A stretch of DNA of 64,000 nucleotides, taken from contig CAMCHR010000002.1 in the NCBI GenBank assembly GCA_945874755.1, forward strand, positions 1 to 64,000, given 5' to 3'. The position numbers and the translations under genes are program-made. Shown here in pieces: positions 8,851 through 20,675 of the stretch. The stretch is from Chitinophaga pinensis. GTDB lineage: Bacteria; Bacteroidota; Bacteroidia; Chitinophagales; Chitinophagaceae. The notes below the pieces were generated by a model, which made no database searches, had not been told where the DNA came from, and worked only from the letters and a program-made list of their open reading frames with translations. Each line of letters begins with the position of its first letter. The stretch's first letter is position 1.

Positions 8851-8923
8851 GGCGCTGTAGCTCAGTTGGTAGAGCAAAGGACTGAAAATCCTTGTGTCCC
8901 CGGTTCGAGCCCGGGTGGTGCCA
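8851..8923 (+). tRNA. tRNA-Phe (anticodon GAA)
   Basis: A 73-base cloverleaf. Acceptor GGCGCTG pairs with TGGTGCC with some G-U pairs; the D arm is AGCTCAGTTGGTAGAGC. The anticodon stem AAGGA/TCCTT encloses the loop CTGAAAA with GAA at 34-36, and the T arm is CCCGGTTCGAGCCCGGG. The discriminator is A, and the following bases are CAA, so the CCA end is not encoded and must be added by the CCA-adding enzyme. Confidence 0.97.
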
Positions 8924-14622: not shown

Positions 14623-15390
14623 ATGAATTTTCAGTACGCATCCGATTTACACCTAGAATTTGCACAAAATAAAAAAGCAATTTTTAAAAAACCATTTTTG
14701 CCTGCTGCAGAAATTTTAATCTTAGCGGGGGATATCCTACCAATTTGCGATTTAGACCAGCATCAAGATTTTTTGAATTACCTATCCGATCACTTTAAAA
14801 TGACCTACTGGCTACCTGGCAACCATGAATTTTATGGGTCAGACTTGTCGACGATGCAAAATAGCTTTGAGAAGACAATTAGACCTAATGTCCTGCTGCT
14901 CAATAATATTGTAAAGGAAATACCAGATGCTGCTGGTCCTATTGAGCTTATTTTTTCGACTTTATGGTCGCATATTCCCGCTCATTTGACCGAAATAGCG
15001 GCAAAAAGAGTTCAAGACTTTAACCAGATTCAATGGAAGGGAAGCAACTTGACGCCCCAGGTATATAATCAGCTTCATCAAGAAGCCCTTGATTTTTTAG
15101 CACCTGCACTGGAATCAAACAACGCTCGAAAAATGGTCATTACCCACCATGTACCCAGCTTTTTGAATTATCCCAAAAAACACCAAAATGACCCAATAAA
15201 TGCCTGTTTTGCCTCAAATTTGGACGATTTTATGCAAAAAACGACCCAAAACGCCTGGATTTATGGGCATCATCATGTCAATATCCCCCCCTTTTTGATA
15301 GGTCAAACTAGTCTTTACACCAACCAATTGGGGTATGTAAAATTTAAGGAAGGAGCAGGTTTTGATCGCAGCGCAAGTATAATGGTTTGA
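14623..15390 (+). CDS. Metallophosphoesterase (calcineurin-like)
   Basis: A 255-residue cytoplasmic protein with the metal-site motifs of the calcineurin-like phosphoesterase fold: ASDLHLEF (D-x-H, about residues 6-13), AGDILP (GD), GNHEFYG (GNHE), ITHHVPS and GHHHV. Together these give the full dinuclear site. The substrate is unknown; relatives act on nucleotides, phosphoproteins or cell-wall precursors. The ATG at 14623 (MNFQYASDLHLEF) puts the first motif where it is normally found. The upstream TTACTTTG (14600-14607), 21 bases after a TTTG, resembles the -7 element with one mismatch and argues against a TTG start at 14605. Confidence 0.9.
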   Translation: MNFQYASDLHLEFAQNKKAIFKKPFLPAAEILILAGDILPICDLDQHQDFLNYLSDHFKMTYWLPGNHEFYGSDLSTMQNSFEKTIRPNVLLLNNIVKEIPDAAGPIELIFSTLWSHIPAHLTEIAAKRVQDFNQIQWKGSNLTPQVYNQLHQEALDFLAPALESNNARKMVITHHVPSFLNYPKKHQNDPINACFASNLDDFMQKTTQNAWIYGHHHVNIPPFLIGQTSLYTNQLGYVKFKEGAGFDRSASIMV

Positions 15391-15416
15391 TGCTTGCTAG
15401 TAAAAATGTATCTTTG
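15386..15416 (+). promoter_or_regulatory. Consensus promoter without an obvious coding target
   Basis: TTTG (15386-15389), 19 bases, TATCTTTG (15409-15416): an exact match to the Bacteroidota consensus. The -33 element overlaps the stop codon of the metallophosphoesterase. Transcription would begin near 15423, more than 230 bases before the next likely ATG (15657). Confidence 0.8.
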
Positions 15417-15422
15417 CCCATC

Positions 15423-15530
15423 ATCAAGAAGCCTTCAATGGCTGCCAACCGAGAGAGTCGAACTCCGCGGTGGTAAAATCGATGAGGACTTACCGTCAAA
15501 GCCAAAACGTAATCTCCTTTATCTTTTTTC
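15423..15530 (+). ncRNA. Candidate structured RNA or long 5' leader
   Basis: Right after a consensus promoter lies a GC-rich island (15441-15473, about two-thirds G+C against an AT-rich background). It can form a short hairpin GAG-TCGAA-CTC (15456-15466) and an 8-bp stem GGTGGTAA/TTACCGTC (about 15469-15476 with 15490-15497, two wobbles). Flanking GGCT and AGCC could close the whole. A T-rich stretch follows (15514-15530). GC-rich islands in AT-rich genomes often mark structured RNAs. A 12-codon ATG frame at 15438 and an ATG frame from 15408 also cross it, so a small protein cannot be excluded. It matches no RNA family I know. Confidence 0.35.
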
Positions 15531-15656
15531 TTGGTTTGATTTATTGAATTTAAAATCAATCATGCCATGTCTGTATCTAAGCAAAATGTAGAAAAATAAT
15601 TGAATAAGCCTAATAAAATCAATAGTAGCAAAGTCAAAAGCAGTACTTCTAATGAC

Positions 15657-16169
15657 ATGCAATTGTTTATTGACTCAATTACCCCATTGAAAACAAAAGG
15701 CAAATTGCAATTGACTTATTTAAATGAGCAGTTTGAAGGAAGCTTTATAGCAACTCCCAATTTAATCAAATTAAAAACCATTCAACCATTCAAGGGCATG
15801 GTAGCTGCAGTTGTATTAGAGACAGGTAGTTTAAGTCCATTTTTACAAAATAATGGTGGCTTGAGTAAAGTGGGTCAGCAGCAAATGTATTTTCTAGTAT
15901 TTGATATTTTCCATTTATATAATTTATTTCGCCTAAAGCCACAAGCATTGCTGGCATTGTATCAGGAAGCATTAGGAATTTTAAATACAAAAGATCAAGC
16001 AGTTGAATTCGGTAAAATAGATCCTAATTCAGACTTAGGTAACACCCTAGCAACCTGGTTACATACTCAAGTGAAGCAAAAATTTAAACACAGTTATTGT
16101 TCACCTAAGGGCCTGCTTTACAGCTTTCAAAATTTGTTGAGCTTGTTTCCAGAAGACTTCATCCTATAA
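15657..16169 (+). CDS. Hypothetical protein, unknown
   Basis: A 170-residue protein without signal peptide or membrane helix and not matching a family I recognise. It alternates beta-like stretches (KGKLQLTYLNEQFEGSF) with a helical middle (MYFLVFDIFHLYNLFRLKPQ) and ends in a Phe/Leu-rich tail. The ATG at 15657 is preferred; an in-frame TTG at 15600 would add a charged, Ser/Lys-rich, poorly structured 19 residues. It probably shares the promoter at 15386-15416, with a long leader between. Codon use looks like its neighbours. Confidence 0.7.
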   Translation: MQLFIDSITPLKTKGKLQLTYLNEQFEGSFIATPNLIKLKTIQPFKGMVAAVVLETGSLSPFLQNNGGLSKVGQQQMYFLVFDIFHLYNLFRLKPQALLALYQEALGILNTKDQAVEFGKIDPNSDLGNTLATWLHTQVKQKFKHSYCSPKGLLYSFQNLLSLFPEDFIL

Positions 16170-16262: not shown

Positions 16263-17360
16263 ATGAAAGGATTTCAATTTACCCCATTTAAGGAAGGCGA
16301 AAATAAAAAAAGCATGTTTGAGCAAATGCTTGACCTGTTTACAGAACTATTGAATTATACCAATGGAGATGCCACAGAAGCCTTAGATTGGCTCAATCAA
16401 TTAGATAATAAGCACAAATTCACTAATAACGATTACGGGATGGGTGATTTTATCGAAGATTTAAAGGAAAACGGCTACTTAAAGGAAAATGGACCAGACG
16501 GAACATTTAAAATTACCTCTAAAACGGAGCAAACCATTCGTAAAAAGAGCTTAGAGGACATTTTTGGGAAGCTTAAAAAAGGCAGTAAGGGCAACCACCA
16601 GACCAATAAAACTGGACCCAGTGCAGAACTTAGTCCGGACACCAGGGCCTATCAATTTGGTGACAATATAGACCAGGTTGATTTTACAGAGAGTATCCGC
16701 AATGCACAAATCAATCATGGAGTGGATAATTTCAGGATGGAAGAAAACGATTTGCTTATTCGCGAAAGTGATTTTAAAACACAGACTTCTACAGTGCTCA
16801 TGATTGATATTTCGCACTCTATGATATTATATGGCGAGGATCGTATCACCCCTGCAAAAAAAGTGGCGATGGCTTTGTGTGAATTAATCACCACTAAATA
16901 CCCTAAAGACACAATAGACATTGTTGTTTTTGGAAATGATGCATGGAGTATTGAAATTAAAGATCTTCCCTATTTACAAGTAGGACCTTATCATACCAAT
17001 ACGGTGGCAGGACTAGAATTGGCAATGGATTTATTGCGTCGTCGTAAAAATCCAAACAAACAGATTTTTATGATTACCGACGGCAAGCCAACTTGTTTAA
17101 AGATTGGTTCTAAATACTATAAGAATAGTTTTGGATTGGACAGAAAAGTAGTGAATCGTTGTTTAAATTTGGCGGCGCAGTGTAAGAAGTTAAAAATTCC
17201 AGTAACCACTTTTATGATTGCATCCGACCCTTATTTACAAAAATTTGTGGAAGAGTTTACCGAGATGAATCATGGTAAAGCGTTCTTTGCATCTTTAGAT
17301 AAACTAGGTAGTTTTATATTTAATGATTTTGAAAGTGGAAAGCGAAAAACAGTATACTAA
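16263..17360 (+). CDS. VWA-domain protein
   Basis: A 365-residue protein. The first 110 residues are helical and charged. A von Willebrand factor A domain occupies about 165-350, with the metal-ion-dependent adhesion motif D-x-S-x-S as DISHS (MIDISHSMILYG) and a second acidic site in MITDGKPT. No signal peptide is present, so it acts in the cytoplasm. It is followed after one base by a MoxR-type AAA+ ATPase; such pairs work as ATPase plus metal-dependent adaptor in assembling or inserting cofactors into target complexes, as in magnesium chelatase and MoxR/CbbQ systems. The ATG at 16263 is chosen over an in-frame TTG at 16236. Confidence 0.88.
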   Translation: MKGFQFTPFKEGENKKSMFEQMLDLFTELLNYTNGDATEALDWLNQLDNKHKFTNNDYGMGDFIEDLKENGYLKENGPDGTFKITSKTEQTIRKKSLEDIFGKLKKGSKGNHQTNKTGPSAELSPDTRAYQFGDNIDQVDFTESIRNAQINHGVDNFRMEENDLLIRESDFKTQTSTVLMIDISHSMILYGEDRITPAKKVAMALCELITTKYPKDTIDIVVFGNDAWSIEIKDLPYLQVGPYHTNTVAGLELAMDLLRRRKNPNKQIFMITDGKPTCLKIGSKYYKNSFGLDRKVVNRCLNLAAQCKKLKIPVTTFMIASDPYLQKFVEEFTEMNHGKAFFASLDKLGSFIFNDFESGKRKTVY

Positions 17361-18975: not shown

Positions 18976-19896
18976 CTATTCAGATTTATCTAATTTAATT
19001 TTAGTAAACACCTGTAAGTGCGGTAGGGCAAGCACTGCAATGCCTATAAATAAAAGCGGCATGACTTCTTTGATACTCCATGCTTCTAATGAAAAATAAA
19101 TAAATATAATAATGCCAGTCCACGCTACAACTGCATAGGGTATGGCTTTGGTGAGTAATTTTTTCCATCCAAGGAAACTGTTTTCCATTTCAAATTCTTG
19201 CCTTATTTTATCAAAAGATAAAATAGAATGCCATAGTCCAAAATAAAAACTAAAACATAGCCAAAGTGGCAATAGCATATTTAAAATAGTTAAGCAGCCA
19301 ATTTGCATGACTGCAAAAAATAATTGCTTGGTGTCTGAAAAAAAATATTTATGGGCAAAGAACAAAATGATATGAATCCCTACAAGCGTAGCCTGAGAAA
19401 TGGGTAATGCGATATTTGCATAATGGATATACTCGTTTGCCTGCATTTTGGATTGTCCTAATAATACAAATACATCAATTGCTGTATGGATATTTTTACT
19501 GAGTAGAAACAAAATCCAGCTAAGCCCTAAAATACTATAGCATAATTTATGAATTCCGTTATAGCTCTTCCCCAACCAGTCTATTTCCCCAAAATGGAAT
19601 GCTGTTAATCCAATGAATATGAGGATGGCGATGGTTGGCAAAAAATACCAAACCAAACCATAGACCAACATATTCAAAAGGTATTTGAATAAAAAGAGAT
19701 AGCCGTGTTTTTTATCGGCTCCATTATAAAGTCTTTGATCTATATAAAAATCTAATGCCCCGTGGGGGATGCCCAATGTAAATAAGGTAACAAATAAAAC
19801 CCCTAATTGCTGGTTCGTTGATAATGGAAAATAGGCATGTAATAAGGCTAAACCGAATCCGATGACCAAAAGTATTTGTCTGAGCTTTATCTGCAT
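18976..19896 (-). CDS. blh: Brp/Blh-family beta-carotene 15,15'-dioxygenase
   Basis: A 306-residue, multi-helix membrane enzyme that cleaves beta-carotene to two molecules of retinal, the rhodopsin chromophore. The family histidines appear in LGIPHGALDFYID (about 42-54), AFHFGEIDWLG, LWHSILSFDKI and LALPHLQVF. It is encoded directly after the proteorhodopsin on the same strand. The ATG at 19896 (MQIKLRQILLVIGF) is chosen because a GTG start at 19929 would place coding sequence across a strong terminator hairpin. Expression must come from read-through of that hairpin or from an unseen local promoter. Convergent with the MoxR ATPase, 33 bases apart. Confidence 0.92.
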   Translation of the reverse strand: MQIKLRQILLVIGFGLALLHAYFPLSTNQQLGVLFVTLFTLGIPHGALDFYIDQRLYNGADKKHGYLFLFKYLLNMLVYGLVWYFLPTIAILIFIGLTAFHFGEIDWLGKSYNGIHKLCYSILGLSWILFLLSKNIHTAIDVFVLLGQSKMQANEYIHYANIALPISQATLVGIHIILFFAHKYFFSDTKQLFFAVMQIGCLTILNMLLPLWLCFSFYFGLWHSILSFDKIRQEFEMENSFLGWKKLLTKAIPYAVVAWTGIIIFIYFSLEAWSIKEVMPLLFIGIAVLALPHLQVFTKIKLDKSE

Positions 19897-19907
19897 ATAG
19901 TAGGCAT

Positions 19908-19938
19908 AAAAAAAGGGGCGAGTTTGCACTCGCCCCTT
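19908..19938 (-). terminator. Terminator/attenuator between rhodopsin and blh
   Basis: On the minus strand an 11-bp perfect stem, AAGGGGCGAGT with ACTCGCCCCTT (plus-strand 19913-19923 and 19928-19938, loop 19924-19927), is followed by seven T. It begins 15 bases after the rhodopsin stop codon and ends 12 bases before the blh ATG, so it lies inside the two-gene unit and should lower blh expression relative to rhodopsin. Confidence 0.92.
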
Positions 19939-19952
19939 AAAGATAGTATGAA

Positions 19953-20675
19953 TTAAGCAGCTTTTCTGCTCAATGCATATATAACAAGACCGAATCCAAT
20001 TTTATTTACAGCATCACCGATGTTGTAAATAATATCCATATTCAAGCCAATATTTGCAAATCCTGCATACCATTGTCCTTCAGCTGTTCCGATTAAATAT
20101 CCTAGAGGATAGATAGCCCAACCAACTAAAATGAACCAACCTAATGCTTTGTTTGCAGATGCAACAGCAGTACCAGCACTTGTAGCTAATTTCTTAACAT
20201 CGCCTAACCATACTTCATACACGATGTAGAAGTAAGCAAGCGCACTAATTGTACCAAACACTGTAGCACTTCCTAATCCAGCTTCACCTACGTAACCTGT
20301 TACCAGCATTACAACAGAAGCTAAAATCATTTTCCATAATAAACCTGTTGTACCACCAGCTTTTTTTGTGATCAAGTAGAACTCAACACACATCAAAGGC
20401 ACAGTTAACAACCAATCTACGTAACGGAAGAAGGTTGGAGAATCTTGCGTTTCTGCATAATAGCTACGCATGTAGTAGTAGTGAACTGCAGCAATAAAAG
20501 TGATCAACCCCGATACTAATACCGAAGTGCGCCACTCTTGACTTGTGTTGCTCAATTCAAAAAAGAAAAAAACCGAAGCGGCCATCATAGCCATTGTGCC
20601 TACAAAGAAAGTAAACGAAACGTAGTCCGTTTTTGCAATCACTGTAGCAGCATCTAGTAAAAATAAAGAATCCAT
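19953..20675 (-). CDS. Proteorhodopsin, light-driven proton pump
   Basis: A 240-residue, seven-helix retinal protein. Proton-pump residues are all present: counter-ion Asp87 in RYVDWLLTVPL, Thr91, proton-donor Glu98 (D-T-E motif), His65 paired with the counter-ion (AAVHYYYMR), Asp221 and Schiff-base Lys225 (GDAVNKIGFG). The colour-tuning site is Met95, which points to green absorption. On helix 5, Gly141 (VFGTISALAYFYIVYEVW) aligns by my reading with the glycine that opens a carotenoid window in xanthorhodopsin, where ordinary proteorhodopsins have a bulky residue. The retinal-making gene follows. No consensus promoter was found in the 255 AT-rich bases upstream. Confidence 0.96.
   Translation of the reverse strand: MDSLFLLDAATVIAKTDYVSFTFFVGTMAMMAASVFFFFELSNTSQEWRTSVLVSGLITFIAAVHYYYMRSYYAETQDSPTFFRYVDWLLTVPLMCVEFYLITKKAGGTTGLLWKMILASVVMLVTGYVGEAGLGSATVFGTISALAYFYIVYEVWLGDVKKLATSAGTAVASANKALGWFILVGWAIYPLGYLIGTAEGQWYAGFANIGLNMDIIYNIGDAVNKIGFGLVIYALSRKAA

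Follow-up and report, generated by a model that had tools for sequence, protein, structure and literature searches.

The unexplained stretch with which the region begins is, as judged from its match to a known RNA family and from its relatives, a SAM-I/IV riboswitch, an RNA class already described. It forms the 5' leader of an orphan gene, whose translation it most likely shuts off when SAM is abundant. SAM binding and the direction of control are predicted from the class and the architecture, and the translational level is likewise a prediction. The window (the whole 64,000-nucleotide stretch of DNA that was analysed) comes from a MAG that falls in the Sediminibacterium group of the Chitinophagaceae. 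The finding identifies a leader that had no explanation as a sensor of known class, and connects to SAM a protein family that is otherwise without features.

Promoter and aptamer

The first-pass annotation had offered three readings of this region, a riboswitch-like leader, a very small protein and a free small RNA, to be checked by an Rfam search and by covariation in relatives. Searching the whole window against Rfam returned just a tRNA at 8851 and the SAM-I/IV family RF01725 at 15416-15514 on the forward strand. The latter covers model positions 1-99 and scores 46.4 bits, above the gathering score of 41.1; its E-value is 2.2e-4 when the whole window is searched and 1.4e-6 in the local stretch. 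It is present in a single copy in the window's assembly, which is 83% complete. The elements are the following:

15386-15416, forward strand: Bacteroidota-type promoter, with TTTG at 15386-15389, a 19-nt spacer and TATCTTTG at 15409-15416 (from the sequence and related loci)
15416-15514, forward strand: SAM-I/IV riboswitch aptamer, RF01725 (from Rfam and covariation on 56 copies)
15421-15425 with 15481-15485, forward strand: aptamer P1
15430-15433 with 15440-15443, forward strand: aptamer P2
15444-15446 with 15472-15474 and 15449-15451 with 15468-15470, forward strand: aptamer P3
15487-15489 with 15495-15497, forward strand: aptamer P5-like hairpin

The promoter TTTG-N19-TATCTTTG is exactly as first described, and the GC-rich, hairpin-capable island followed by a T-rich tract is also there. 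Hairpin potential is nevertheless weak evidence, because the folding energy of the island is near that of shuffled sequence (z = -0.97, with 42 of 200 shuffles equally or more stable). In 56 of 60 related loci P1 is immediately preceded by a TAnnTTTG-like box (shuffled sequences give 6.8 ± 2.4), so that transcription probably starts at the foot of the aptamer, with the 5' end of the transcript near the foot of P1.

To score the aptamer pairs, 56 distinct RF01725 copies were aligned. In this alignment 95.8% of the cells were paired and two-sided, compensatory changes occurred in 15 of the 21 pairs; none of 500 shuffles was as high on any measure, and pairing reached at most 52% when the partners were slid. 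The four-stem architecture is conserved across these copies, and their core motifs vary little or not at all. The riboswitch-like leader thus stands, now with a known class, and the other two readings fall. An ATG and a 12-codon frame do exist at 15438-15476, but the codons of this supposed micro-protein, MAANRESRTPRW, are the base-paired P2 and P3 stems, and its ATG, which falls within the variable loop of P2, is not shared by close relatives (G299 and G326 have TTTAGTGG); we rejected it. Nor does the window support a free-standing small RNA, since no terminator-like site was found in the leader and what comes next is a protein gene under purifying selection. With covarying stems explaining the sequence, the chance that either product is encoded here is negligible.

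Of 299 family genomes 18 carried RF01725, as did 37 of the 101 genus genomes. In other genera metK follows several of the copies, the context expected for a SAM sensor. These copies also bear on the ligand. An RNA that keeps the SAM-I/IV fold and senses a related molecule (S-adenosylhomocysteine), or none, would suit a target that is not a methionine gene, and sequence cannot give the identity of a ligand with certainty; we nonetheless hold this to be improbable, because the core motifs are common to the copies preceding metK. The metK gene of Sediminibacterium itself was ruled out as a riboswitch target, no riboswitch match being found around it in three genomes.

Some further arrangements were recorded around metK-like genes. 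The window's assembly holds a second, partial metK (G000:C3:52936-53805, locus L169) whose upstream sequence looks unlike the rest of the genome; its contig is possibly a contaminant. At L037 (G296:C50) a frame of 176 aa, carrying a degenerate MetK-like motif, FDSVSNGHANKI, lies between the SAM-I/IV element and a full metK, and is perhaps a decayed metK duplicate. At L026 and L041 the element precedes a four-gene cluster which, naming the genes from sequence inspection, comprises a MoxR-like AAA ATPase, a small protein, a VWA/metallopeptidase-like protein and a divergent MetK-like protein (KRYSEAVLNGHPDK). Finally, G208 has a tandem pair of SAM-I/IV aptamers separated by about 40 nt (L024, 6371-6610, reverse strand).

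The orphan gene

Two features describe the gene behind the aptamer:

15567-15599, forward strand: probable original start of the orphan gene, MSVSKQNVEK, ending at the in-frame TAA 15597-15599 (from comparison with relatives)
15600-16169, forward strand: frame of the orphan protein, 189 codons from TTG, with the next in-frame ATG at 15657 (from dN/dS and a structure model)

The gene had been thought to start at 15657. In relatives it starts at an ATG matching window position 15567 (MSVSKQNIEKE... in G388), and the comparison makes ATG 15567, about 150 nt past the promoter, most likely the true start. Codon 11 is TAA in the window and GAA in G388; the frame is consequently intact only from 15600, where the in-frame ATG at 15657 was all that could be seen at first. 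Disorder is predicted for the N-terminal part of what is left of the frame, and the relative in G319 has no N-terminal tail, starting directly at MQLFID. The early stop may therefore be a real nonsense change that is tolerated or that re-initiation gets around, or it may stem from an error in the assembly. With dN/dS values of 0.07-0.11 against close relatives, the frame shows strong purifying selection.

Among the 299 family genomes 2, both Sediminibacterium, were found to carry the protein, and among the 101 genus genomes 25; by comparison of coordinates, RF01725 lies directly upstream on the same strand in all 25. A scan of one genome per species (84,980 species) recovered 22 orphan-gene loci, all in Bacteroidota MAGs, the titled records being Sediminibacterium and other Chitinophagaceae/Bacteroidetes MAGs. 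The riboswitch is also present in three more records (L140, L153 and L156), and a fourth (L145) begins inside the gene. We regard the family as fast-evolving and restricted to Sediminibacterium, known only from one freshwater bacterial group. Its model shows a five-stranded sheet followed by helices (mean pLDDT of 85). Sequence searches of Pfam, NCBIfam and the PDB gave no match for the protein, and its model gave no convincing PDB or viral fold match. For such a family, constant association with a SAM riboswitch is a strong hint at function, and a role in the response to SAM or methionine shortage would be expected.

The VWA and AAA genes at 16263 and 17362 were considered as operon targets of the riboswitch and rejected. 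They belong to the genus core (the VWA gene is present in 92 of 101 genus genomes) and G266 has them on the other side of the riboswitch. As their position relative to the riboswitch varies, the latter belongs with the orphan gene. Elsewhere in the window, on the reverse strand at 18976-20675, Pfam identifies a bacterial rhodopsin gene (19953-20675) beside a beta-carotene 15,15'-dioxygenase gene (18976-19929), a pair that makes up a retinal-based light system.

Proposed expression platform

Between the aptamer and the start codon, two further helices recur, which exclude each other:

15423-15430, forward strand: 5' strand of P1 with the adjoining J1/2, AUCAAGAA, alternative partner of anti-P1
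15528-15535, forward strand: anti-P1 element UUCUUGGU, pairing with 15423-15430 through 8 pairs, one of them G-U (permutation test)
15532-15567, forward strand: start-codon hairpin, 15532-15535 with 15564-15567 and 15537-15545 with 15554-15562 (permutation test)

Over 30 non-redundant loci the anti-P1 pairing had a native mean of -9.36 kcal/mol, against -7.79 ± 0.36 for permuted partners, and over 17 non-redundant loci the arms of the start-codon hairpin gave -7.69 against -4.55 ± 0.49; in neither case was any of 20000 permutations as good, shared ancestry being not fully removed from either test. Divergent loci keep the anti-P1 pairing with letters changed on both sides. Taken in the window alone this pairing is not significant, 10% of shuffles being as good. 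The window's hairpin pairs UGGU at 15532-15535 with GCCA at 15564-15567, and so includes the A of the AUG at 15567. The anti-P1 helix and the hairpin share 15532-15535. Sharing bases in this way, the two helices are mutually exclusive, and together with P1 they would make a switch.

In the mechanism that we propose, bound SAM would stabilise P1 and thereby free UUCUUGGU, which would enter the hairpin ending at AUG 15567 and block the ribosome. Without SAM, the 5' strand of P1 would pair with UUCUUGGU, the hairpin could not close and the orphan gene would be translated. The mutually exclusive helices offer a testable model of start-codon blocking in bacteria that rarely use Shine-Dalgarno sequences.

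Many riboswitches control transcription termination, and the same aptamer might act here through Rho-dependent or intrinsic termination in the leader instead of at the start codon. The leader does contain U- and pyrimidine-rich tracts. However, it has no terminator-like site, and the conserved hairpin, rich in A and U, lies directly against the start codon, so that we consider transcriptional control unlikely.

Control at the start codon need not take the same form everywhere. About nine genomes with a divergent orphan gene (G266, G305, G386, G334, G344, G322, G312, G329 and G300) have their AUG right after the 3' part of the aptamer, without a leader. In most of them GUUU(A) of the P3 loop can pair with (U)AAAC beside the AUG, which suggests direct occlusion of the start codon by P3-loop pairing. 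Such genomes, together with G021 where the loop complement covers the AUG, lend some credit to the idea that the anti-P1 pairing is incidental and that SAM acts only by a pseudoknot, or by folding of the aptamer, beside the start codon. Yet the window's AUG lies some 50 nt downstream of the aptamer, the anti-P1 pairing persists with compensatory letters, and the test of the P3-loop pseudoknot with downstream sequence was weak, 1770 of 20000 permutations doing as well as the native partners; we find an incidental pairing very improbable and retain the switch between P1, anti-P1 and the hairpin for the window. Many aligned loci also combine UUAC in the P5 loop with a downstream GUAA, both highly conserved.

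Related aptamers and known SAM riboswitches

Outside the window, relatives carry a second tRNA-Cys(GCA)-like gene with a terminator-like hairpin and a T-run behind it. About 24-100 nt before this gene, in the same orientation, lies a SAM-I/IV aptamer with its own promoter. A custom-built model was used to search 32 such tRNA-Cys-like loci; the aptamer lay directly upstream in 12 (L200, L204, L206, L210, L211, L214, L215, L216, L222, L223, L225 and L228) and about 420 nt upstream in one, L201. The copies examined have A33 and an apparent G73 (read from the acceptor stem), where the genome's standard tRNA-Cys has U33 and U73. Their 5' acceptor strand, UGUCAU, recurs at the 5' strand of the aptamer's P1. 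At L202, L203, L207, L213 and L218 the gene is preceded only by the conserved promoter (the inverted repeat GTCTATAAAAATAGTAGAC and TAnnTTTG) and by what seems to be a decayed aptamer remnant. A riboswitch before a tRNA-like RNA would be unusual. The literature searched offered no precedent, and the arrangement merits a separate study.

Taken together, these arrangements raise a broader idea, which we put forward tentatively and at somewhat less than even chances: that in Sediminibacterium the SAM-I/IV sensor left the methionine genes for a SAM-shortage response of its own, in which two or more expression platforms govern genus-restricted orphan proteins and sister species transcribe an aberrant tRNA-Cys-like RNA behind that aptamer. 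The literature searched links no riboswitch to Sediminibacterium, and in those parts of it available to us the orphan gene target, its restriction to the genus and the expression platform appear to be unreported.

Among known systems, SAM-I and SAM-IV riboswitches have an internal loop in P2, the lack of which is a trait of the SAM-I-IV-variant (Weinberg et al. 2010, PMC2864571). The window's P2, a short continuous stem capped by a 6-nt loop, lacks it, unlike that of SAM-I (S box, RF00162), with which the element has the clan and core motifs in common. None of eight genomes (the window's and seven relatives) matched RF00162. SAM-I riboswitches likewise act by alternative pairing of the P1 strand. 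SAM-IV has a related core, and in some relatives the P3 loop could pair with downstream sequence, a pseudoknot with weak support; a local Rfam scan with E-values up to 1, keeping only the best match of the clan, returned RF01725 alone. The closest likeness is to SAM-I/IV (RF01725) itself, with a full-length match above the gathering score, the short P2 and relatives before metK. The element differs from it in its target, an orphan gene instead of a SAM or methionine gene (a typical, not a defining, context), and in the proposed platform of anti-P1 and start-codon hairpin, of which we found no description in the portions of the literature covered. As an RNA class the element is ordinary; its interest lies in the target gene and in its relatives.
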